A DNA stretch of 64,000 nt, from assembly GCF_001639105.2 (NCBI RefSeq), contig NZ_CP015285.1, forward strand, positions 1,976,501 to 2,040,500. The letters are read 5' to 3'. Every line of letters begins with the position of its first letter. Within the stretch, counting starts at the first letter, position 1. The notes under the pieces are model-generated. The model was not told where the DNA came from. It saw only the letters and a list, made by a program, of their open reading frames with translations, and did no database searches. The position numbers were made by a program, and so were the translations under genes. This document shows, one piece after another, positions 1 through 9,117 of the stretch. The stretch is from Azospirillum humicireducens (GTDB lineage Bacteria > Pseudomonadota > Alphaproteobacteria > Azospirillales > Azospirillaceae).

Positions 1-1695
1 ATGGACGAGCTTAACGATCGGCCGATTCCCCCTCCCCAGTCGGTGGATGAGGCATTGGACAATGCCCATCGCTACCGCGCATTGCTGATCGAGACGATGC
101 CGGGCCTGATCGTTCACCGCAACGGCCGCGTGCTCTATTGCAACACCGCGCTGGCCAATCTTCTCGGTTATCCGACGACACGCGAAATCCTGGCATTGTC
201 GAACGTGCTGTCCATCGTGCCGGAGGACGCGCTCCATGCCGAAGAAAAGGCCTATGCCCGATGCCTTGGCGGCCAGCTGCGGCTGGAGGCCCGTCGGGTA
301 AAGCGTTACCGCGCCGATTCCAGCCTACAGTGGTTCGACCAGCTGCTGGAAACGGTGGAGTGGGCAGACGGTCCGGCGATCATGGAAATGCTGACCCAGA
401 TGCGTCCCCATCCGGCGAACGCCGATCTGCCGCGCCAGGGGCAATTGCTTCAGGCCGCGATCGACGCCATGCCCAACGGCGTCCTGATGCTGGACAAGGA
501 TTTGCGGCTGGAGGGTGCAAACAGCGAATATTTCAGACTTTGGGACTATCCTCCGGGAATGTTCCCTCCGGGCACGCCAGTATCCGCGACTCTGGACTAC
601 AACCACAGCCGGGGAGATTATGGCGACGTTCCCCGACATGAAACGATCCAGGCCCTGTGCGCGAAGCTGCGCGTCAAGGGCGTGGCCAATGCCGAGCGGG
701 AGGTGCCGAACGGTCGAACTCTGGATATCCGAACCGCTCCACGCGCCGACGGCGGGTACGTCATCACTCAATATGACATCACCGATCGGAAGCGGATCGA
801 AACCGAGCTGCGTGAAGCCAAGGAAAGAGCAGAGTCGATCCTGCGGGAACTGCGGGAAACCCAGCAGCAGTTGATCGTTCAGGAGAAAATGGCCTCTCTT
901 GGCCAGCTCACGGCCGGAATCGCACACGAACTAAAGAACCCGCTGAATTTCGTCAATAATTTCGCCGACTTGAGCGGCGAGCTTCTCGATGAACTTCTCG
1001 CCTTCCTGAATCCGCTGAAATCAGGTCTTCCTTCCGAAGCCGGGATCGAGGTGGATGCCCTAATCAAGGATCTGCAAAGCAATCTGCGCAAGATCGGAGA
1101 GCACGGCAAACGGGCCGACCGCATCGTCAAGAGCATGCTCGATCATTCCCGTGGTGGCGGCGGCGAATGGCAATCCGTCGATCTCAACGCCTTGGTCGAC
1201 GAAGCTCTTATGCTTTCCTATCAGGCAAGCAGAACCCAGGATTCCAGTTTCAATGCAACGCTTGAGCGGGACTTCGATCCGACATTGGGGGAACTGGACC
1301 TGGTGCCTCAGGACATTTCCCGTGTTCTGGTGAATTTGTACACCAACTCTTTTTATGCTCTCCGACGTCGGCAGCTCATCTGCGGCGACCCGCAATATTC
1401 TCCCACACTGAAAGTTGCCACCCAGGGACGCAGCGACGACGCAGAAATCAGGATTAGAGACAATGGAATTGGAATCCCGCCCTCTTTGATTGAGAAAATA
1501 TTTACGCCATTCTTCACCACAAAGCCCGCCGGCGAAGGGACAGGTTTGGGTCTTTCCCTGAGTTATGACATCGTGGTACATCAACACAGGGGTCATTTCG
1601 ATGTGTCCAGCATCGAAAACCAATACAGCGAGTTTGTGATTTCGCTGCCGCGCAAATCCGTGGCGGCCAATCCAGGGGAGCGGCGCAAACCATGA
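1..1695 (+). CDS. PAS-domain sensor histidine kinase
   Basis: Two-component sensor kinase of 564 residues. Two PAS-like sensory regions (about residues 22-140 and 150-260) precede a short coiled linker. The HisKA dimerisation helix has the phospho-acceptor His at about residue 309 (GIAHELKNPLNF). The HATPase domain shows an N box (VNLYTNSFYAL), a G1 box (DNGIGIPP) and a G2 box (GTGLGLSLS). No membrane segment is seen, so it is probably a cytoplasmic sensor; the signal is unknown. The stop overlaps the start of the following response regulator by four bases (ATGA), so the two are translationally coupled partners. The window begins exactly at its ATG, so the upstream region is not visible and an earlier start cannot be excluded. 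Confidence 0.9.
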   Translation: MDELNDRPIPPPQSVDEALDNAHRYRALLIETMPGLIVHRNGRVLYCNTALANLLGYPTTREILALSNVLSIVPEDALHAEEKAYARCLGGQLRLEARRVKRYRADSSLQWFDQLLETVEWADGPAIMEMLTQMRPHPANADLPRQGQLLQAAIDAMPNGVLMLDKDLRLEGANSEYFRLWDYPPGMFPPGTPVSATLDYNHSRGDYGDVPRHETIQALCAKLRVKGVANAEREVPNGRTLDIRTAPRADGGYVITQYDITDRKRIETELREAKERAESILRELRETQQQLIVQEKMASLGQLTAGIAHELKNPLNFVNNFADLSGELLDELLAFLNPLKSGLPSEAGIEVDALIKDLQSNLRKIGEHGKRADRIVKSMLDHSRGGGGEWQSVDLNALVDEALMLSYQASRTQDSSFNATLERDFDPTLGELDLVPQDISRVLVNLYTNSFYALRRRQLICGDPQYSPTLKVATQGRSDDAEIRIRDNGIGIPPSLIEKIFTPFFTTKPAGEGTGLGLSLSYDIVVHQHRGHFDVSSIENQYSEFVISLPRKSVAANPGERRKP

Positions 1696-2087
1696 CATTG
1701 GGAATTCTCGTTGTAGACGATGAGCCGGATGTCGAGGATCTGTTTCGTCAACGTTTCCGTGCGGAACTGCGCAGGGGCGAACTGGTGTTGCACTTTGCGG
1801 TTTCGGCGGAACAGGCCCTGCGCAACCTTAACGAAGGGCTGCAGCCTGAGGCCGTGCTTGTTCTGAGCGACATCAACATGCCCGGAATGAGCGGACTTGA
1901 GTTCTTGCAGCATGTGAAAGCCAACCTGCCGCAAGTTCCGGTGATCGTGGTAACGGCCTATGGGGATGCGGAAAACCGCCGACGCGCCCTGGACATCGGC
2001 GCGACCGAACTGGTCACCAAACCCGTCGACTTCGTTGCCCTGAAAAAGCTGGTCAGCAGCGTGATCGAACAGAAATTCGCGGCCTGA
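1692..2087 (+). CDS. Single-domain response regulator
   Basis: Receiver domain only (131 residues) with no output domain. Acidic pocket residues D9/D10, phospho-acceptor Asp at about residue 60 (LSDINMPGMSGLEF), the conserved Thr (VVTAYGD) and Lys (VTKPVD) are all present. It overlaps the upstream PAS kinase by four bases and is its obvious cognate partner. It probably acts by protein-protein interaction or as a phosphorelay intermediate. It converges on the minus-strand peptide-modification operon, with 57 bases between stop codons, so there is no direct evidence that it controls that operon. Confidence 0.9.
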   Translation: MTLGILVVDDEPDVEDLFRQRFRAELRRGELVLHFAVSAEQALRNLNEGLQPEAVLVLSDINMPGMSGLEFLQHVKANLPQVPVIVVTAYGDAENRRRALDIGATELVTKPVDFVALKKLVSSVIEQKFAA

Positions 2088-2144: not shown

Positions 2145-3302
2145 TCATGCGCCACAGACGGCGGACAGATCGCGCAGTTCGGGATTAACGCCGGAACAGC
2201 ACGGACAATCGGGATCCACCGGCACCGCAAGCTCGTTGAATTCGCCGCGCAACCCGTCATACATCAGCAGACGCCCCGACAGCGAAGTCCCGAGAGTGAG
2301 CAGAAGCTTGATCGTCTCCGCGGCCATGATTGTCCCGATGACTCCCGGCAAAATTCCCAGAACTCCGGCTTCGGCGCAGGACGGTGCATATTCCGACGGC
2401 GGCGGTTCCGGAAACAGACAGCGATAACAGGGACGCTCCCCCGGCGCGGCAGCCCCTCCGAACACGGAAACCTGTCCCTCGAACCGGAAGATCGCGCCAT
2501 AGACGACAGGGATTCCCAGGCGCAGGCAGGCGTCGTTCACCAGATAGCGCGTGGGCAGGTTGTCGGAGCCATCGACCACCACATCATGCCCTGCCAGGAG
2601 ATCGAGCACGTTGGCAGCCTCCACGCGTTGCTTCCGCGTCTGAACCTCGATGGTCGGATTGAGGTCGAGCAGCGCCATGCGTCCGCTCTCCACCTTGTCC
2701 TGACCCAGACGGCTTTCCGCATGAAGGATCTGGCGCTGCAGATTGCTGCGCTCCACCCGGTCGTCATCGATCAGCGTCAGGCGTCCCACACCGGCGGCGG
2801 CGAGATACAGGGCGACCGGCGACCCCAATCCGCCGGCGCCGATCAAGGCCACGCTGCTTCTCAGCAGGCGATGCTGACCGGCTTCGCCGACCTCCGGCAT
2901 CGTCAGATGACGACGGTAACGTTCGCGCTGGCCGGCATCCAGGCGGGGCGGCACCTCCACCGGCAACCCGGCGGCCTTCCAGGCGGAAAAGCCTCCGCTG
3001 ACCGACCGCACATCGGCATATCCCAAATGCAGCAGGTCTTCGGCCGCCAGCAAGGAGCGCGTTCCACCGGCACAGATCAGAAGGAGCGGACGCGCCGGAT
3101 CGGGCACATGCTCCTCGATGCGCAGTTCCAGAAAGCCGCGCGGCAAACGCAACGCCCCGGCAGGAATGCCGACCGCCGTCTCCTCTTCCTCCCGCACGTC
3201 GATCAGAATGGCACCGCTCTGCTGCAGGCCGAGGACGTCGGACACGGCGATCTCCGGAATCCGGGCACGCAACTCGCTCAGCCTCTGGTCCTTCAAGCTC
3301 AT
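2145..3302 (-). CDS. Rhodanese-ThiF/MoeB-type E1 activating enzyme
   Basis: Fusion protein predicted to adenylate the C-terminal glycine of the adjacent sulfur carrier and transfer sulfur to it. An N-terminal rhodanese domain (about residues 10-105) has an active-site loop with Cys (LLICAGGTRS). The E1-like domain (about 115-380) shows the ATP loop GAGGLGSPVALYLAAAGVG, SNLQRQILH, DGSDNLPTRYLVND, and two zinc-binding CxxC motifs (CYRC and CPCC). MoeB/MOCS3-type proteins usually carry rhodanese at the C-terminus; here the order is reversed. The start at 3302 has AGGAG ahead of it; an in-frame ATG at 3317 overlaps the previous gene. As last gene of the YcaO-TfuA operon it is inferred to supply sulfur for thioamidation rather than molybdopterin or thiamine. 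Confidence 0.85.
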   Translation of the reverse strand: MSLKDQRLSELRARIPEIAVSDVLGLQQSGAILIDVREEEETAVGIPAGALRLPRGFLELRIEEHVPDPARPLLLICAGGTRSLLAAEDLLHLGYADVRSVSGGFSAWKAAGLPVEVPPRLDAGQRERYRRHLTMPEVGEAGQHRLLRSSVALIGAGGLGSPVALYLAAAGVGRLTLIDDDRVERSNLQRQILHAESRLGQDKVESGRMALLDLNPTIEVQTRKQRVEAANVLDLLAGHDVVVDGSDNLPTRYLVNDACLRLGIPVVYGAIFRFEGQVSVFGGAAAPGERPCYRCLFPEPPPSEYAPSCAEAGVLGILPGVIGTIMAAETIKLLLTLGTSLSGRLLMYDGLRGEFNELAVPVDPDCPCCSGVNPELRDLSAVCGA

Positions 3303-3313
3303 GCACCGTCTCC

Positions 3314-3592
3314 TCAACCACCCGCCAGGGCAACCATCACCGTCAGGGTGGCGCCGGCCGGCAAGGCCGTTTCAAGTCCGCCCAACCGGCGCACATCGTC
3401 ACGCCCGAGATAGACGTTCACGAAGCGCCGCAATTCACCGTCGGCGGCGAACAGGCGCTCGTGGAACGCATCCTGACCGGCGGTCAACGCCAGCAAAACC
3501 TCGCGCACCGTACCGCCGGGCACCGCCACCTGATCCCGCCCGCCGACGAAGCCACGCAGCGGGGTCGGCAAACGGATTGTCACGTCGGTCAA
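3314..3592 (-). CDS. ThiS/MoaD-like ubiquitin-fold sulfur carrier
   Basis: Small protein of 92 residues with a beta-grasp pattern (VTIRLPTPLRGF ... VPGGTVREVLLAL ... RFVNVYLGRDDVR ... ATLTVMVALAGG). It ends in the diagnostic Gly-Gly used for adenylation and thiocarboxylate formation. The marked start is TTG at 3592, overlapping the tfuA stop, with GAGGAG upstream; a GTG at 3583 with AAGGA nine bases upstream is equally plausible and would give 89 residues. It lies between the TfuA and E1 genes. In the characterised methanogen system TfuA hydrolyses thiocarboxylated ThiS to release sulfur for YcaO, so this is the predicted sulfur donor for the cluster. Confidence 0.85.
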   Translation of the reverse strand: MTDVTIRLPTPLRGFVGGRDQVAVPGGTVREVLLALTAGQDAFHERLFAADGELRRFVNVYLGRDDVRRLGGLETALPAGATLTVMVALAGG

Positions 3593-4998
3593 TCCTTCAT
3601 CTCCTCTTCAAGCGCGGAATGGCTGGCTGCAACCTCGCGCAGCGCCGACTCGGCTTCCGCGGCGAGGTCGCGGACGAGGTCGCGCACCTTCTTGGCCCGA
3701 ACCAGGTCGATCCTGAGATCCAGGACATCCTTGAACCCGAATTCATAAGCCCAGACGTCGAGCGGAGCATCGATCCGGCAGGGGGTGTGAGCGAGGTGAT
3801 CCAGGATCAACTCTTCGGTCGTCTCCTGCGATTGCTGGGCGGTCCCGCCGAAATGCAGGTCCGACACACGTTGCATGAAGGCGGCCTCCTCCGCGATTGT
3901 CTGATAGAGGCCACGCAACCGCAGTTCATTCAAGACGGGCTTCGTCGTCCGTGCAAGGAAACGCCGGGAAATCATCCAGTGACGCATCGCCCGCTCGGTG
4001 GCCAACTCGGCGATCAGCGCGTCGAACTCCTCCTCCGTCAGATCGTTGCTGCGGCACCAGCGCAGCAAGGCCTCCGTGGAGCTGATGCCACGGGCCACGC
4101 AGAAGCGCCGGGCCTCGGCGGCGATGGCTTCGGCATCCGCCTTCACCCCGACGGCTTCGGCCAGTTGCAGCGCCAGCAGACGGCCAAGCGCGGCATTGTT
4201 GATCTCGGCGAAATCCGGCCGGTGCAGGGCGGCATGTAGGGCGATGTCCGACAACGGAACGGTGTTGTCGCCATGCTCCACCCGACGATCGCGTTCATAC
4301 AGCACGTCGAAATAATGCGACGCGTTGAAGACGAAGGGCGCCGGGCGCGACGGAGTGACCAGACTTGCCAGATGGCCAAGCAGCGATTCCGCATCGCGGC
4401 GCTTCTGATCGACCGCGCCGGCGGCAAGAAAATCCTCCAGCCGCTCGATTTCCGCGACAGCCAGCGAGGCCTCGGTCCAAATCCGGTCGCGCGTCCGTTC
4501 GGGAAAATAGCAGCGTTTGGCGGCCGCGATCACCCGGTCGTGCAGTTCCGCAGTGATGACTCCGGCACCCAGGGCCGCCGCCAGGCTGGCACGCAGATTC
4601 ACCAGCGGTTCGGACAGCGGGAGATAGCCGTCCTCAGGGCCGGCATGGGCCAGCGCCACCTCGTCGTCGCCGGTCAGGCGTCCATCGATGTACTGCCGCG
4701 CGACCTCGCCAACCGGAATCATGCCGAAGCCATGGCATTCAGCCGCCCTCAGCGCACCCATGCTGGATGCGCCATAGACCGCGACCCCCCTGGAGAGCGC
4801 GAACAGGATCTCCTTGTGCCAGACCGACAGCGACTGGCCGAAGACGCCGTCGATCAGGGCGATCACATCCGGCCGGTGAATGGTCATGGCGCTGAGGATG
4901 TCGGCCTGAGCGGCCGGAGGCAGATACACCGCATCCGGCAGGATCACTCTGGCGTCCTCGACGGCCATGGTCGGACCAAGGAAAACACATATCTTCAT
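3589..4998 (-). CDS. tfuA: TfuA-family thioamidation partner protein
   Basis: Protein of 469 residues. The N-terminal half carries family landmarks: MKICVFLGPT, ILPDAVYLPPA, ALIDGVF, WHKEILFALSRGVAVYGASS, MGALRAAE, DDEVA and LSEPLVNLRA. The Ser-rich GASSMGALRAAE loop is a likely location of the hydrolase serine; known TfuA uses a Ser-Lys dyad to hydrolyse thiocarboxylated ThiS and helps YcaO bind its substrate. The C-terminal half (about 240-469) is helical and not typical of minimal TfuA; its role is unknown. An upstream ATG at 5028 overlaps the ycaO stop (ATGA) and adds ten residues; ATG 4998 is preceded by AAGGGCGGG and begins with the family N-terminus, so it was preferred. Confidence 0.85.
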   Translation of the reverse strand: MKICVFLGPTMAVEDARVILPDAVYLPPAAQADILSAMTIHRPDVIALIDGVFGQSLSVWHKEILFALSRGVAVYGASSMGALRAAECHGFGMIPVGEVARQYIDGRLTGDDEVALAHAGPEDGYLPLSEPLVNLRASLAAALGAGVITAELHDRVIAAAKRCYFPERTRDRIWTEASLAVAEIERLEDFLAAGAVDQKRRDAESLLGHLASLVTPSRPAPFVFNASHYFDVLYERDRRVEHGDNTVPLSDIALHAALHRPDFAEINNAALGRLLALQLAEAVGVKADAEAIAAEARRFCVARGISSTEALLRWCRSNDLTEEEFDALIAELATERAMRHWMISRRFLARTTKPVLNELRLRGLYQTIAEEAAFMQRVSDLHFGGTAQQSQETTEELILDHLAHTPCRIDAPLDVWAYEFGFKDVLDLRIDLVRAKKVRDLVRDLAAEAESALREVAASHSALEEEMKD

Positions 4999-5024
4999 AC
5001 GCCCGCCCTTGCCCGAAGCCCCTG

Positions 5025-6362
5025 TCATGCCGTGCCCCCACCGGCGGCCATCCGCATTCTGACCGCTTCGGCAAAGCTGTGCGAGCGCGATCCCGGCGCG
5101 TAGAAATCGGAACGATAGCCTTCCAGGCCGGGAACGATAACCCGGACAACCGGTATCCCGATTTCGGCCTGGGTCAGATCGAAGACAAGAACCTGCGACA
5201 GTCCCGCCCGTTGCAGCATTCCCAGCAGCACGGCGATGTCGCCCTCGAATGTCGGTGTGGACAGATCGGAATGACGACGCCCATCGACAACGGCCGGCTG
5301 AGCTTCCAGAGCCGCGATTCCGGACGCTCCATCGGCATTCTGGTTGCGGATCATGTCCCGCCGGAAAAAATCGTCGCGGGAGCCGGCGATCATCACCAAC
5401 CGGGCTTGAACCGCCTCGGTCAGAGCGCGGCACATCGCGACGGCCGGTTCCAGGTGGCTGCCGTAACCGCGGCTCATGCCCATGTTCCGCACATCGCGAT
5501 CGTAAACCAGCGCCATGTAGGTGGGCAGGCCGAGATCGTTGGTGACGTCGAACAGCAGCGGGCGGACCCCGGCCTCATCGAAGCGGCGCAGGAGGTCACG
5601 GACCGTCGGATACTCGATGGTGGACAGATCGACCTGCGGAGTCGGTATCTGCAACTCGTCGCAGGCCCTGCTCCAACAAGAAACCGCATCGCGCTCCATC
5701 ACTTCGCAAAGTCCGGAGGCAACGGCTTCGAGGATGTGATTGCCGCTGGCTAAGCCATTGGTGTCCGCAGAATAGAAGCTGCGCGGCCCCGGTCTGGCGC
5801 CCGCGACGCTGTGCAGTCCCACAGCGGTCCAGGGAGCAGCAACCGAACGGCCGCCGATCAAATCCCAACCCCAGGTCCAGAATTCCGGCCTGTCCGGTTG
5901 AAACGCACAGTCCTTACTGCCCTGAAGCCGGTCGGACGGAATGCGCCCGTCTTCAGGCAGGTCGTTCCAGGCGGCTTCAATATGCGGCAGACGCATCGTC
6001 TCCGCATGGTAGCATTCGATGCCCTCCATCGCAGCCGACACTGTGGCAGCCACGAGACTGAAGCCCTTTCCGGCGCTTCCCGCCAGGGTTGAACTGTTCG
6101 GACGATGGCCGAGCACGGTGTGGATGCCGACCCGGTCCAGACCCGTCACATCGGCCAGCCTGGTGATCCCGCAGCGCCCCAGATGAGGAGTGATGCGCGC
6201 CAGCGTCTCTTCCGGCGTCGCCGTGCGGTGGGTGCCGGTGAAAAACTTCTTCGCAGCGGTGTGGATGGTATCCCCCAACCTGATGCCAACTGCCGAACGC
6301 GGCGGATCGGCGGAAAGCGGGTCGGTTTGACCGGGCACTGCCGGGTGTGTCGAGGCCTGCAT
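5025..6362 (-). CDS. ycaO: YcaO-domain ATP-dependent peptide-backbone modifying enzyme (predicted thioamidase)
   Basis: Protein of 445 residues with YcaO ATP-binding signatures: SAGKGFS with a following EGIECYHAE, the SGLCEVMERDA segment (ExxExxR-like) and ALTEAVQARL (ExxQ). The C-terminus ends AAGGGTA and lacks the PxPxP tail typical of azoline-forming cyclodehydratases. YcaO proteins use ATP to activate a backbone amide; when paired with TfuA the known product is a thioamide. The gene sits directly downstream of the repeat-bearing precursor and overlaps or abuts tfuA. No RiPP-recognition (ocin-ThiF) partner is seen, consistent with thioamidation rather than azole formation. The substrate assignment is inference. 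Confidence 0.88.
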   Translation of the reverse strand: MQASTHPAVPGQTDPLSADPPRSAVGIRLGDTIHTAAKKFFTGTHRTATPEETLARITPHLGRCGITRLADVTGLDRVGIHTVLGHRPNSSTLAGSAGKGFSLVAATVSAAMEGIECYHAETMRLPHIEAAWNDLPEDGRIPSDRLQGSKDCAFQPDRPEFWTWGWDLIGGRSVAAPWTAVGLHSVAGARPGPRSFYSADTNGLASGNHILEAVASGLCEVMERDAVSCWSRACDELQIPTPQVDLSTIEYPTVRDLLRRFDEAGVRPLLFDVTNDLGLPTYMALVYDRDVRNMGMSRGYGSHLEPAVAMCRALTEAVQARLVMIAGSRDDFFRRDMIRNQNADGASGIAALEAQPAVVDGRRHSDLSTPTFEGDIAVLLGMLQRAGLSQVLVFDLTQAEIGIPVVRVIVPGLEGYRSDFYAPGSRSHSFAEAVRMRMAAGGGTA

Positions 6363-6373
6363 CCTCAGCTTCC

Positions 6374-6413
6374 AAAAAATTGCAGTGGGGCCGGCCTCGC
6401 GGGAGACCGGCCC
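6374..6413 (-). terminator. Hairpin plus U-run between precursor gene and ycaO (possible attenuator)
   Basis: On the minus strand a GGGCCGG/CCGGCCC stem (6407-6413 with 6388-6394) is followed about eight bases later by six T residues (6374-6379), all inside the 60-base gap between the precursor stop and the ycaO start. The spacing to the U-run is longer than in a textbook terminator, so it may be leaky. It would let the precursor be made in excess of the enzymes, as in other RiPP operons. Confidence 0.45.
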
Positions 6414-6422
6414 TGACGCAAA

Positions 6423-7709
6423 TCAGGCGATGGTGTCCTTGCCAGCATCGGCCGCCGGCCCCGCATCGGCCTGCGTCTCCGAAGACGAAGTCGCCTCAAC
6501 CGACGGAGCCGCGGATGCCGGGACGCCGAACAAGGAAGACAGGCTGGCGACGGCGGCGGGAACCGAGAACAGCGAAGCCGTCTGAGCGGTGGCCGGAACC
6601 GCGAACAGCGACGACAGGCTTGCAACCGCAGCCGGATGTGCCTGCAGCGAGGCGCCGGACGCAGGCGCGGACGGAGCAGACGGAGCGGCAGGTGCCGTGA
6701 ACAGCGAGGCCGCCTGCGCAGCGGCAGGAACCGCGAACAGCGACGACAGGCTCGCAACCGCAGCCGGATGTGCCTGCAGCGAGGCGCAGGCCGCAGGCGC
6801 GGACGGAGCAGACGGGCTGGCCGGCGCCGTGAACAGCGAGGCCGTCTGAGCGGTGGCCGGAACCGCGAACAGCGACGACAGGCTCGCAACCGCAGCCGGA
6901 TGTGCCTGCAGCGAGGCGCAGGCCGCAGGCGCGGACGGAGCAGACGGGCTGGCCGGGGCCGTGAACAGCGAGGCCGCCTGAGCGGTGGCCGGAACCGCGA
7001 ACAGCGACGACAGGCTCGCAACCGCAGCCGGATGTGCCTGCAGCGAGGCGCAGGCCGCAGGCGCGGACGGAGCAGACGGGCTGGCCGGCGCCGTGAACAG
7101 CGAGGCCGCCTGCGCCGCGGCGGGAACCGCGAACAGCGACGACAGGCTCGCAACCGCAGCCGGATGGATTTGCAGCGAGGCGTCGGCCGCAGGCGCGGAC
7201 GGAACAGACGGACTGGCCGGCGCCGTGAACAGCGAGGCCGCCTGCGCCGCGGCAGGAACCGCGAACAGCGACGACAGGCTCGCAACCGCAGCCGGATGTG
7301 CCTGCAGCGAGGCGCAGGACGCAGGCGCGGACGGAACAGACGGACTGGCTGGTGCCGTGAACAGCGAAGCCGCCTGCGCAGCGGCCGGAACCGCGAACAG
7401 CGACGACAGGCTCGCAACCGCAGCCGGATGGATTTGCAGCGAGGCAACGGCGGCCGGAGCCGCAGCCACCGAGGAGGCGGCCATTGCGATCGACTCGGCG
7501 GCCAGACCCGAATTCACCTCGCCATTTCCGGCAAGCGCGCCGAATGCCTGGGCGGCGACGGAGCGCACATCTTCCGCCGTGACATCGCCGTAGCCGCTTT
7601 GAGCGAGGATCGCCTGCTTGCCGGCAGCGTCCGCGCCGTTAAGCCGGTCCCGGAAAGCACTGTCAGTAGCAAGGCTCTTAATCAGGTCGAGCGCCTTCTC
7701 GTTGGCCAT
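6423..7709 (-). CDS. Nif11-like leader peptide with seven tandem 44-residue repeats (predicted RiPP precursor)
   Basis: Protein of 428 residues. Residues 1-60 form a Nif11-like leader (MANEKALDLIKSLATD, FRDRL, AILAQSGYGDVTAEDV). From about residue 89 to 395 there are seven near-identical 44-residue units, each with LQ(A/I)HPAAVASLSSLFAVP, AQ(A/T)ASLFTAP and a Ser/Pro/Ala linker, then a partial eighth SLSSLFGVP unit and an acidic Ala/Ser tail. Cys occurs in four of seven linkers and is not conserved, whereas ASLSSLF and VP are. A strong AGGAGAGG site precedes the ATG. The operon position before ycaO-tfuA and the leader shared with the 89-residue peptide argue that this is the modified substrate. 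A repetitive surface or structural protein is the alternative. Confidence 0.75.
   Translation of the reverse strand: MANEKALDLIKSLATDSAFRDRLNGADAAGKQAILAQSGYGDVTAEDVRSVAAQAFGALAGNGEVNSGLAAESIAMAASSVAAAPAAVASLQIHPAAVASLSSLFAVPAAAQAASLFTAPASPSVPSAPASCASLQAHPAAVASLSSLFAVPAAAQAASLFTAPASPSVPSAPAADASLQIHPAAVASLSSLFAVPAAAQAASLFTAPASPSAPSAPAACASLQAHPAAVASLSSLFAVPATAQAASLFTAPASPSAPSAPAACASLQAHPAAVASLSSLFAVPATAQTASLFTAPASPSAPSAPAACASLQAHPAAVASLSSLFAVPAAAQAASLFTAPAAPSAPSAPASGASLQAHPAAVASLSSLFAVPATAQTASLFSVPAAVASLSSLFGVPASAAPSVEATSSSETQADAGPAADAGKDTIA
6533..7449 (-). repeat. Tandem 132-bp coding repeat, seven units plus a partial
   Basis: A landmark block (gcgaacagcgacgacaggct on the plus strand, slightly diverged in places) recurs at 6601, 6733, 6865, 6997, 7129, 7261 and 7393, exactly 132 bases apart. 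The period equals 44 codons and every unit stays in frame with the precursor gene. Units differ by a handful of mostly conservative codon changes (Ala/Thr, Ala/Ile, Val/Ala), which suggests recent expansion or gene conversion. The copies are contiguous, not separated by unique spacers. Confidence 0.95.
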
Positions 7710-7831
7710 CTGCCTCTCCTATGCTGTCTGCAAATTCGATTGCGTCTGAATCATATGACTGCTTCGACCAATAACATAGGCAATCCGAAAAAATGCTACC
7801 CGAAAATCGCATTAATCGACTTGAGAATAGA

Positions 7832-8107
7832 TTATTTAATTTCGATTACGCAATCCGCTCCCTCAGGTTGGAGTGGCAGCTGATTTCCAAAATAAAAATA
7901 TGCATACGAAAGACCCTCGAAGAACTTGAGAGGTCTTCCGTATAAGAATGCCAATCGCAGCCAAAAACTCGCCATGATCTCGGAAGCGGCGATTCCCGAT
8001 CCCCTATGTATTTGGAAAGCCAGCCTGAAGAAGGCGATTTCGCCCTGCCGCACACCGTCACTCAACCTTATGAAGCGGAAGGAGGTCGTATCCTCAACCG
8101 ATCGCAA
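7832..8107 (-). CDS. Small ORF of unknown function inside the RiPP operon
   Basis: A 91-residue reading frame starts with TTG nine bases after the stop of the 89-residue precursor and has AAGGA five bases before the TTG. The product is rich in aromatic and hydrophobic residues (ASFWLRLAFLYG, LSYAYFYFG) and resembles no family I know. The region is lower in GC than its surroundings, so codon bias does not help. It could be an immunity or accessory peptide, or a chance ORF in the leader region of the repeat-precursor gene. Confidence 0.35.
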   Translation of the reverse strand: MRSVEDTTSFRFIRLSDGVRQGEIAFFRLAFQIHRGSGIAASEIMASFWLRLAFLYGRPLKFFEGLSYAYFYFGNQLPLQPEGADCVIEIK

Positions 8108-8116
8108 GCAGGTCCT

Positions 8117-8386
8117 TCACATGGCGACTCGCGAAACGGCGGCCGTGGAGATGCCGGCAGACGAATTCGCCGCCCGGTCGACTGCGGAATGGTCGGCCTG
8201 CATCACAGTGTTTTCAGTGGAGGACGATTGCGCCATCGCGCGCAGATCGGCGACCGTGACCTTATCGAATCCGTGACGGGCGAGCACATCGCGTTTCGCA
8301 CCCATATCGCGGCCTCCGAGCACGCCCCGAAAAGATGGATCGGTGGCAAGACGCTTGATCAGCTTGATCGCACTGGTCGCAGCCAT
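8117..8386 (-). CDS. Nif11-like precursor peptide, short form (predicted RiPP precursor)
   Basis: Peptide of 89 residues whose first 54 residues align without gaps to the leader of the repeat-bearing precursor: shared positions include LIK.LATD..FR..L.G.D, K...LA..G, VT..D.R. The remaining 35 residues (from about SSSTENTVMQADHS onward) are Ser/Ala/Thr-rich with no Cys and share nothing obvious with the repeats, so the two leaders would present different cores to the same enzymes. The upstream Shine-Dalgarno is weak and the promoter region is AT-rich. It is the first gene of the minus-strand operon. Confidence is good for the leader family, moderate for its being a substrate. Confidence 0.7.
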   Translation of the reverse strand: MAATSAIKLIKRLATDPSFRGVLGGRDMGAKRDVLARHGFDKVTVADLRAMAQSSSTENTVMQADHSAVDRAANSSAGISTAAVSRVAM

Positions 8387-8547: not shown

Positions 8548-9117
8548 TCAAGATCGCGGATGGCTACGCCACTCATCCCGCGTTTGACGCCAGAATTCCG
8601 CCATCGGCTGGGCCATGGGTTCGGGCAACGGCGCAAGGCCGCTCATATGCCCGCCCAGCCGCCGCGCAACCGCCTTGGATGCGAGATTTTGCGGGTTGAT
8701 CGTGTGAAGCACATCCTTCCAGCCAAGCGTATCGAAGGCCCAATCGATGGCTGCGGTTGCCGCCTCCACGGCATAACCTCGCCCCCAATGACTGCGCAAG
8801 ATCGCCCAGCCGACCTCATTTCCGGGCCAACCTTCCGGAACCCAGGGGCCGACTCGCCCCACCCAAAGGCCGGTGGATTTCTCGATCACGGAAAACATGG
8901 AAAAGCCCTGGATCATCCAGGCTCCGGCGACTGCGACGAATCCACGCCAGGCGATGGGACGCGACTGCGCGCCGCCGATATGCCTCGTCACCTCCTCGTC
9001 CGCCATCATGACGGCCCAGGGTTCGAAATCTTCCGCCCTGGTCGGACGCAGGAGCAACCGAGGGGTTTCCAGGATCGGGTCCGCGACCGACCGTATGTTC
9101 TGCTGCACCGTCGACAA
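8548..9117 (-). CDS. GNAT-family N-acetyltransferase (RimJ/RimL-like)
   Basis: Protein of 189 residues with the GNAT pattern: N-terminal ILETPRLLLRPTRAEDFEPW, central VGRVGPWVPEGWPGNEVGWA, and the acetyl-CoA loop region SHWGRGYAVEAATAAIDWAF followed by NLASKAVARRLG. Such enzymes acetylate protein N-termini or small molecules. It starts with TTG, with GAAGGG eight bases upstream. It lies on the same strand 160 bases before the first RiPP precursor. Whether it belongs to that cluster (for example N-terminal acetylation of a product) cannot be told; independent transcription is equally likely. Confidence 0.8.
   Translation of the reverse strand: MSTVQQNIRSVADPILETPRLLLRPTRAEDFEPWAVMMADEEVTRHIGGAQSRPIAWRGFVAVAGAWMIQGFSMFSVIEKSTGLWVGRVGPWVPEGWPGNEVGWAILRSHWGRGYAVEAATAAIDWAFDTLGWKDVLHTINPQNLASKAVARRLGGHMSGLAPLPEPMAQPMAEFWRQTRDEWRSHPRS

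Follow-up and report, generated by a model that had tools for sequence, protein, structure and literature searches.

A putative YcaO-TfuA thioamidation operon of Azospirillum humicireducens with its own sulfur-relay genes and a tandem-repeat precursor

A number of systems have been described in which YcaO acts with TfuA. In the thiovarsolin cluster of Streptomyces varsoviensis (PMC6511847, in the text examined), the two proteins accompany a precursor with a repeating core shown to be thioamidated, and there is no specific protease. Nif11-like precursors beside ycaO-tfuA were reported by Malit et al. (2021, PMC8120280), with MoeB and ThiS among the genes in the figures; the legends, in the portion examined, do not tie these two to the Nif11 cluster. 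The archaeal system for McrA thioglycine (PMC5589413; 6xp8), in the part of the text consulted, combines YcaO and TfuA family proteins with rhodanese-domain genes nearby. Thioamide-forming YcaOs outside high-sulfide habitats tend, according to the sections examined of PMC13063428, towards ThiS homologues and TfuA for sulfide delivery. The separate ingredients, namely Nif11-like precursors with TfuA, repeating thioamidated cores and sulfide delivery by ThiS and TfuA, are thus already known. In literature searches with most subscription papers outside their scope, nothing was found linking 'thioamidated' with Azospirillum, nothing was on topic by title for TfuA with SurA and RiPP or for Azospirillum with RiPP and YcaO, and Nif11 with tandem repeats yielded graspetides and methanobactins.

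The window, a stretch of 64,000 nucleotides from A. humicireducens, holds on its minus strand, between 2145 and 8386, two precursor genes with Nif11-like leaders followed by ycaO, tfuA and genes for a ThiS-like carrier and a rhodanese-E1. Open reading frames and family searches bear out this content, which a preliminary description made from the letters alone had proposed; ycaO and tfuA are adjacent. The features are as follows.

8117..8386, minus strand: PreA, an 89-aa precursor-like peptide with a Nif11-like leader and a short non-repetitive tail
6423..7709, minus strand: PreB, a 428-aa precursor with a Nif11-like leader, an ESIAxAA stretch, a tandem array and a charged tail
7530..7709, minus strand: PreB leader, residues 1-60, found in 24/45 Azospirillum genomes
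6519..7442, minus strand: seven 44-aa units of PreB, SLQ[AI]HPAAVASLSSLFAVPA...
5025..6362, minus strand: YcaO (PF02624 1.3e-76)
3589..4998, minus strand: TfuA, long form, 469 aa (PF07812 4e-42)
3961..4206, minus strand: SurA N-domain-like part of TfuA, about residues 265-346 (hhalign 6.9e-7)
3314..3592, minus strand: ThiS/SAMP1-like sulfur carrier, TTG start, C-terminal AGG (PF02597 2e-05)
2145..3302, minus strand: rhodanese-E1, N-terminal rhodanese plus ThiF/MoeB domain (PF00899 5.6e-78, Rhodanese 2.1e-11)
1692..2087, plus strand: receiver-only response regulator, a convergent neighbour (PF00072 6.3e-23)
1..1695, plus strand: PAS sensor histidine kinase, a convergent neighbour (PF12860, HisKA, HATPase_c)

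A small ORF at 7832-8107, which the preliminary description had placed in the operon, is unconserved; since it matches no family and nearly all of it, bar the last few bases, lies outside the blastn alignment to genome G004, it is not counted as a gene.

The operon probably represents a backbone-thioamide RiPP system whose substrates join a Nif11-like leader to a long, nearly charge-free tandem-repeat core. The nearest named families of its YcaO are of the McrA-thioamidation type (1.1e-65), although the score against TIGR03266, 222 bits, falls below the cut-off of 365 and NF033432 was likewise matched below cut-off only; the protein also aligns with MJ1094 (6pe3) over most of its length (1.1e-28). 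Formation of azolines or another YcaO product instead of thioamides might be suggested by the match to a SagD-type model (5.4e-36) and by the Ser and Thr common in the arrays, but the McrA-type model is the better one, 12 of the 14 main arrays are without Cys, and ycaO adjoins both a tfuA whose product has the solved fold of a thioamidation protein and dedicated ThiS and E1 genes, so that this outcome is very improbable.

The fold of TfuA is seen in a model whose residues 1-216 superpose on 6xp8 with Z 27.9 and an rmsd of 1.8 over 212 aligned residues. The gene probably starts at 4998, 26 nt after ycaO, though translation might instead begin at an in-frame ATG that overlaps the stop of ycaO. 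Unlike the archaeal protein, which in the partly consulted source has 217 residues and no C-terminal half, and acts on an enzyme subunit without a leader, the long form carries a C-terminal part that appears related to the N-domain of the SurA chaperone. The profile match is clear (hhalign 91.9%, 6.9e-7, 76 columns, score 47.5, in one comparison for which SurA was picked after the sequence and a fold list had been inspected); 60 column shuffles scored at most 15.5 and the positive control, SurA_N against SurA_N_3, 48.1 (1.5e-7). The fold matches of this half are weak (Z up to 7.2, Foldseek 0.38) and were obtained with it folded alone, the whole-TfuA model being uninformative on it, and in a Pfam scan of 23 members SurA_N_3 (0.063) and SurA_N (0.24) were each matched by one member at E-values that are not convincing.

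The carrier passes PF02597 (25.5 bits, cut-off 22.5) and ends in AGG in every one of the 24 listed Azospirillum loci, in which one genome is represented twice. Proteins of the Uba4/MOCS3/MoeZ type have E1 and rhodanese domains fused and pair with GG-ending ubiquitin-like sulfur carriers. The rhodanese-E1 here differs from them in that its rhodanese domain is N-terminal and in being confined to operon genomes among the 45 searched. The rhodanese Cys, GAGGLGS, SCAEAG and CYRC are present in 21/21 Azospirillum E1s, a second Cys pair varying in some; we take these to be, respectively, the rhodanese cysteine, the E1 nucleotide loop, the catalytic Cys and one of the Cys pairs. The enzyme passes NF006444 (573 bits, cut-off 449), a model that carries the name MoeB, and it could be asked if carrier and E1 are ordinary molybdopterin or thiamine cofactor genes that lie here by chance. 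This is very improbable: another E1 is retained in 45/45 Azospirillum genomes whereas the operon E1 is found in 22 of the 24 carrier genomes (G001 and G003 being without it) and in none of the others, which argues that it is not the housekeeping enzyme, and the carrier protein too, apart from a weak match in G032, is confined to the 24.

A route can be proposed in which the rhodanese domain would acquire sulfane sulfur, the E1 domain would adenylate the GG end of the carrier on the way to a thiocarboxylate, TfuA would free sulfide from the thiocarboxylated carrier, and YcaO would use ATP to exchange oxygen for sulfur at backbone amides throughout the repeat array. The SurA-like part may bind unfolded leader or core, substituting for the RRE of other YcaO systems. 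The sequences themselves show which genes are present and in what order, their motifs and domains, the co-occurrence and the change of repeat unit; thioamidation, with the number and position of its sites, we infer, and the product is probably a multiply thioamidated repeat. A compact thioamidation system seemingly equipped with its own sulfur donors would suit tests of how YcaO-TfuA finds its substrates when no RRE is involved.

An important consideration is the identity of the leaders, which the preliminary description called Nif11-like. The PreB leader scores 15.8 bits against PF07862 (cut-off 23.8) and 15.2 against TIGR03798 (cut-off 32.3), and PreA matches PF07862 at E=0.14, also below cut-off. 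The two belong together, PreA being found with the PreB leader as query (1.0e-7) and matching the leader HMM at 3e-26, though it was among the sequences from which that HMM was built. The Nif11-like name thus stands on relatives: among the 14 of 26 leaders scanned against families, Nif11 (Pfam) was matched by 9 and leader_Nif11 (NCBIfam) by 10 at E<=0.1, whilst two full Azospirillum precursors (L044, L118) scanned whole matched no NCBIfam model. The TfuA core forms a clade with those of Minicystis and Gemmatimonadota (support 100/99), and in those two the peptides just upstream of ycaO exceed the leader_Nif11 cut-off (33.9 and 51.3 against 32.3 bits); the L051 peptide is above both Nif11 cut-offs, and that of L052 is above TIGR03798 and just under Pfam's (22.3 against 23.8). 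ESIA is present in 14/14 main Azospirillum precursors. Malit et al. describe a GG motif, in other genera, in the partly examined text of PMC8120280, a paper whose main text contains neither 'repeat' nor 'Azospirillum', whereas no double-Gly cleavage site ends the leaders in the window, for which reason the precursors are termed Nif11-like and are not filed as Nif11 members. GG at residue 62-64 occurs in 4/14 main Azospirillum precursors and is not conserved, L052 having AVAGG. The operon encodes neither a protease nor an exporter, which, together with the lack of a conserved GG site, speaks against the thioamide RiPP reading in that maturation is unexplained.

The PreB array consists of seven 44-residue units, the seventh diverging part-way, and charged residues make up 0.9% of the 333 residues measured. 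Beneath the conserved leader the unit length changes with species (44, 25, 18/29, 15, 10 and 9 aa), so that several related species have kept the machinery and swapped the repeat unit for a quite different one, and the arrays, rich in Ala, Gly, Ser and Pro, reach hundreds of residues. At least six quite different units beneath one leader constitute natural experiments on the range of cores that the enzymes may accept. A general period of five residues suits many arrays (5, 10, 15, 20, 25) and fails for 44, 18/29 and 9. The PreB reading frame does not simply follow from the repeat, because differences from G004 in the leader fall at codon positions 1/2/3 as 4/6/27, those in the units as 266/152/748 (all between-species unit pairs summed, the pairs not being independent), and the leader shares its 24/45 genomes with the carrier. 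Other open frames cross the repeats on both strands, as expected for a period divisible by three. In A. cavernae, leader and array are in different frames.

How such an array would be used admits two versions of the thioamide reading. In one, which is a tentative possibility, the array would resemble thiovarsolin, with many cores, one thioamide spot in each unit and trimming by general proteases into many short peptides. Thiovarsolin likewise has a repeating core, YcaO-TfuA and no specific protease (PMC6511847, in part). That a core can become multiplied is indicated by a second YcaO-TfuA family, where L121 and L094 have one AGRF-type ending and L070 has 20 corresponding motif matches. However, the partly examined source gives thiovarsolin no more than five repeats, which are imperfect and have an APR core, other tailoring genes and, in that text, no ThiS or E1, whereas the arrays here extend over hundreds of residues with a unit differing between species; neither an APR nor a GPR core was found in the window repeats, no spacer common to different species' arrays was seen, and in 13 of the 14 main arrays, all except L046, which is frameshifted, charged residues amount to 0-0.9%. 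In the other version, which is doubtful, Azospirillum would encode a polythioamide in its genome: many backbone amides of a long repeat protein would be converted, the chain would be used whole as a polymer, and the SurA-like part of TfuA would act as a built-in chaperone. If so, the sequence could be replaced wholesale provided it stayed small-residued, uncharged and unfolded, uses such as metal binding, sulfur storage or surface material might be considered, and the intact chain would constitute a biological polymer of a new type.

The preliminary description had linked the peptides to ycaO and tfuA, and the idea survived comparison with relatives. Of 45 Azospirillum genomes, the same 24 have both leader and carrier, ycaO, tfuA and thiS stand together in 23 further Azospirillum loci (at least one genome counted twice), and the enzymes are 67-89% identical across loci; the long TfuA was found in 19 of the 37 members of the genus searched. 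Sequence, context and relatives support a YcaO-TfuA operon that has its own sulfur relay and precursors of Nif11-like type. The leader lies at most a few kb from the operon in 15/24 carrier assemblies. In 8/24 the two are on different contigs, the leader mostly at the end of its contig, and in G007 they are separated by 0.93 Mb; we read the separation as probable assembly breaks at repeats. A control gene of the window is present in 45/45 genomes, carriers being 85-96% and non-carriers 77-85% identical, with carrier G001 below two non-carriers. On the identities of this one gene, not a tree, carriers look like mostly one clade, so co-occurrence is partly descent. It might be argued that the repeats belong to a structural or surface protein of low complexity and that the adjoining YcaO-TfuA acts on another substrate. 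The Ala/Gly/Ser/Pro-rich composition would fit, 7/14 leaders match an IniB N-terminal model at E<=0.1, with 4.7e-4 as the lowest value, and no NCBIfam model matches the window leader better (7.2e-4; 19.4 bits, cut-off 40). Yet the leader is found in each of the 24 carrier genomes and in no other of the 45, leader matches number two in 14 of the 24, and in two distant clade members ycaO is preceded by peptides above the Nif11 cut-off, where IniB scores far lower, making a separate structural protein improbable. No leader match better than E=0.05 was found within up to 10 kb on each side of 61 other TfuA loci (L053-L113, among the 80 of 219 matches listed).

Three features go beyond the preliminary description: the species-dependent change of repeat unit, the SurA-like C-terminal part of TfuA and a co-occurring kinase. 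The kinase is in the same 24/45 genomes as the operon (E<=1e-120), confounded with clade, and the receiver gene belongs to an overlapping-ORF group common to 22/24 loci; both are possible regulators. A GNAT gene at 8548-9117 is present in 20/24 carriers and also in three non-carriers (E<=1e-40), and is therefore probably a mere neighbour. In G004 the PreA homologue has G/A/S/F-rich pentads in place of the short non-repetitive tail. By eye, a stretch lying some 55-75 nt ahead of PreB seems to recur in 7 of 10 selected upstream regions.

Judged from substitutions between species, PreB, a precursor-like peptide with a Nif11-like leader, is a real, translated and constrained reading frame. It is the second gene of the operon below, in which the four enzyme and carrier genes each matched the expected family.

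Genes of the operon, in operon order, with the convergent neighbours
8117-8386, minus strand: PreA, first in the operon, a Nif11-like precursor without a repeat array
6423-7709, minus strand: PreB, second
5025-6362, minus strand: ycaO
3589-4998, minus strand: tfuA
3314-3592, minus strand: ThiS-like sulfur-carrier gene
2145-3302, minus strand: rhodanese-E1 gene, last in the operon
1-2087, plus strand: PAS histidine kinase and receiver-only protein, convergent to the operon

PreB runs from a leader of about 60 residues through an ESIAxAA stretch into seven 44-residue units, the seventh departing from the repeat part-way, and ends in a charged tail. Its closest relative, in genome G004, carries six such units. 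Substitutions that separate these two sequences at codon positions 1, 2 and 3 number 4, 6 and 27 in the leader and 266, 152 and 748 in the repeats (summed over all between-species unit pairs), and it is because they fall mostly at third positions in both parts that the frame is considered translated and constrained. A stretch like GATTGCCTATGYTATTGGTTTA upstream of PreB (about 7764-7785, minus strand), which by eye recurs in seven of ten aligned regions, is a possible promoter. The PAS histidine kinase was also seen in genome G034, there on a separate contig.

When the 14 main (PreB-type) Azospirillum precursors were compared, some of them from close strains, the leader proved to be conserved but the repeat unit did not, and ESIA was present in all 14.

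Repeat units of the main precursors
44 residues: window and G004
25 residues: five loci, SASAVPAPAFSAVAAPASAFSAAAQ
18 and 29 residues: two A. oryzae
15 residues: A. doebereinerae and A. agricola
9 residues: A. soli
multiples of 5 residues: G003
10 residues: A. cavernae, locus L046:6395-8720, leader and GTIAAGQIAG-type array in different frames, with the array stop upstream of ycaO

In 13 of the 14 precursors alanine makes up 30-48% of the sequence after the leader; charged residues account for 0-0.9% of 13 of the 14 arrays, while the matching leaders contain 18-28%. The one array that departs from this low charge is that of A. cavernae, which runs in a different frame from its leader, reflecting either a frameshift or an assembly fault. 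The second precursor, found in 14 of the 24 genomes carrying the ThiS-like gene, is more variable than the main one, and its A. oryzae array is 13-15% charged, contrary to the low-charge rule.

The hydrolysis of thiocarboxylated ThiS by TfuA was reportedly worked out by Liu et al. in 2021. The E1 and rhodanese of the operon could charge the ThiS-like carrier and, since ThiS and TfuA parts are encoded together with them, backbone thioamides would be expected along the PreB array. According to one study, YcaOs forming thioamides in organisms outside high-sulfide settings tend towards a thiocarboxylated ThiS homologue plus TfuA (PMC13063428). The operon components have precedent (PMC8120280, PMC6511847, PMC5589413, PMC13063428), and another paper names four earlier classes of YcaO-TfuA RiPPs and adds one (PMC13174530).

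Among 45 Azospirillum genomes the ThiS-like carrier gave 24 strong matches and one weak one (1.8e-7, in G032), and the carrier, the PreB leader and the neighbouring kinase occur in an identical set of 24. The rhodanese-E1 was found in 22 of these and in no other genome, being absent from G001 and G003; the 22 include G064, where a contig end truncates the gene and the rhodanese part is not visible. Another E1, of 50-55% identity, occurs in all 45, three of these matches containing an internal TGA. The long TfuA was present in 19 of the 37 Azospirillum genomes searched, every one of them a carrier. Going by the identities of one control gene, the carriers seem for the most part to form a single clade; shared occurrence by itself is thus weak evidence, and more weight falls on gene order and on the distant relatives. 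In 15 of the 24 carrier assemblies no more than a few kb separates leader and operon; in eight the leader is on a different contig, mostly at a contig end, and in G007 it is 0.93 Mb away. Seven draft loci (L039-L041, L045, L047-L049) start at most some 750 bases upstream of ycaO, in several cases within the array, and the unit of the A. endophyticum array fragment (L041) matches the end of the G015 leader contig (L126). Both the contig starts near ycaO and the separation of leader from operon are read as assembly breaks at repeats.

A tree of 28 TfuA cores groups Azospirillum with Minicystis rosea (L051) and a Gemmatimonadota genome (L052), with support of 100/99. Both loci encode short-tailed Nif11-like peptides directly upstream of ycaO, the former ending TVFAVASAAVAGA and the latter having AVAGG and then the end RTAIWVIAISTTVLAAVSAL. 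These peptides, found by blastp with the window leader and afterwards built into the leader HMM, score 33.9 (L051) and 51.3 bits (L052) with leader_Nif11 (cut-off 32.3) and 24.2 and 22.3 bits with Pfam Nif11 (cut-off 23.8). Distant relatives over a Nif11 cut-off and a leader beside the operon in 15 of 24 assemblies weigh in opposite directions. In 61 other TfuA loci (L053-L113), drawn from the best 80 of 219 TfuA matches, the leader HMM found no match better than E=0.05 (27,403 frames, E scaled to 2,000 sequences). A strong-repeat scan of 90 loci flagged 25, the majority from Azospirillum and the rest being L051, L057, L058, L070 and L102. A sulfur relay encoded with the enzymes is not confined to Azospirillum, since ThiS and E1 also lie near ycaO-tfuA in L052, L066 and L108, and an E1 was noted in L110.

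TfuA, whose nearest named relatives among the matches listed are from Azospirillum (the window's own record possibly being omitted), is a protein of two parts. Over residues 1-216 its model matches the M. acetivorans TfuA structure 6xp8 (Z 27.9, rmsd 1.8, 212 aligned). The remainder, modelled by itself with a mean pLDDT of 89.2, gave nothing significant with Foldseek, SurA being top-listed at E 0.38; in a second fold comparison SurA, PrsA or PEB4-type proteins filled nine of the best 11 rows at Z 4.0-7.2, a range that helical models often reach by chance. The likeness to SurA is clearer by profile comparison: the tail profile scored 47.5 against 14 SurA_N domains (91.9%, 6.9e-7, 76 columns) and 39.4 against eight SurA_N_3 domains, where 60 column shuffles reached at most 15.5 and 14.7, respectively, and the reference comparison of SurA_N with SurA_N_3 scored 48.1. 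That profile takes in long TfuAs of 11 loci where no Nif11-like leader was detected, and the SurA-like tail is therefore not specific to such leaders. A literature search, with most subscription papers outside its reach, found neither a description of this SurA-like part nor a long array of changing units behind a Nif11-like leader.

The window's genome holds two more ycaO-tfuA loci outside the operon, and precursor-like or repeat-bearing frames were noted at ycaO-tfuA pairs both there and in other genomes.

Precursor-like and repeat-bearing ORFs at other ycaO-tfuA loci
L070:6859-7812, plus strand: precursor-like ORF in which a GR[FWY]-type motif is matched 20 times, within 26-residue repeats
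L121:10035-10244, minus strand: ORF in the window's own genome with one GR[FWY]-type copy at its C-terminus
L120 (G000:C5) 7511-7852, reverse-oriented: 113-residue ORF directly upstream of the third ycaO-tfuA pair, with LGATCY twice near its end
L057:12791-13435, plus strand: ORF ending in VSGSR-type simple repeats, in the neighbourhood of another pair
L102:8755-9924, plus strand: ORF ending in MMQSRA-type simple repeats, likewise

The repeat ORF of L070, an alphaproteobacterial MAG, lies directly upstream of a ycaO from a different YcaO-TfuA family from the window's. A single GR[FWY]-type copy also stands at the C-terminus of an ORF in A. halopraeferens (L094), and core repeat growth in the L070-type family seems, on these sequences, to have happened independently. 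The 113-residue ORF of L120 looks like another precursor.
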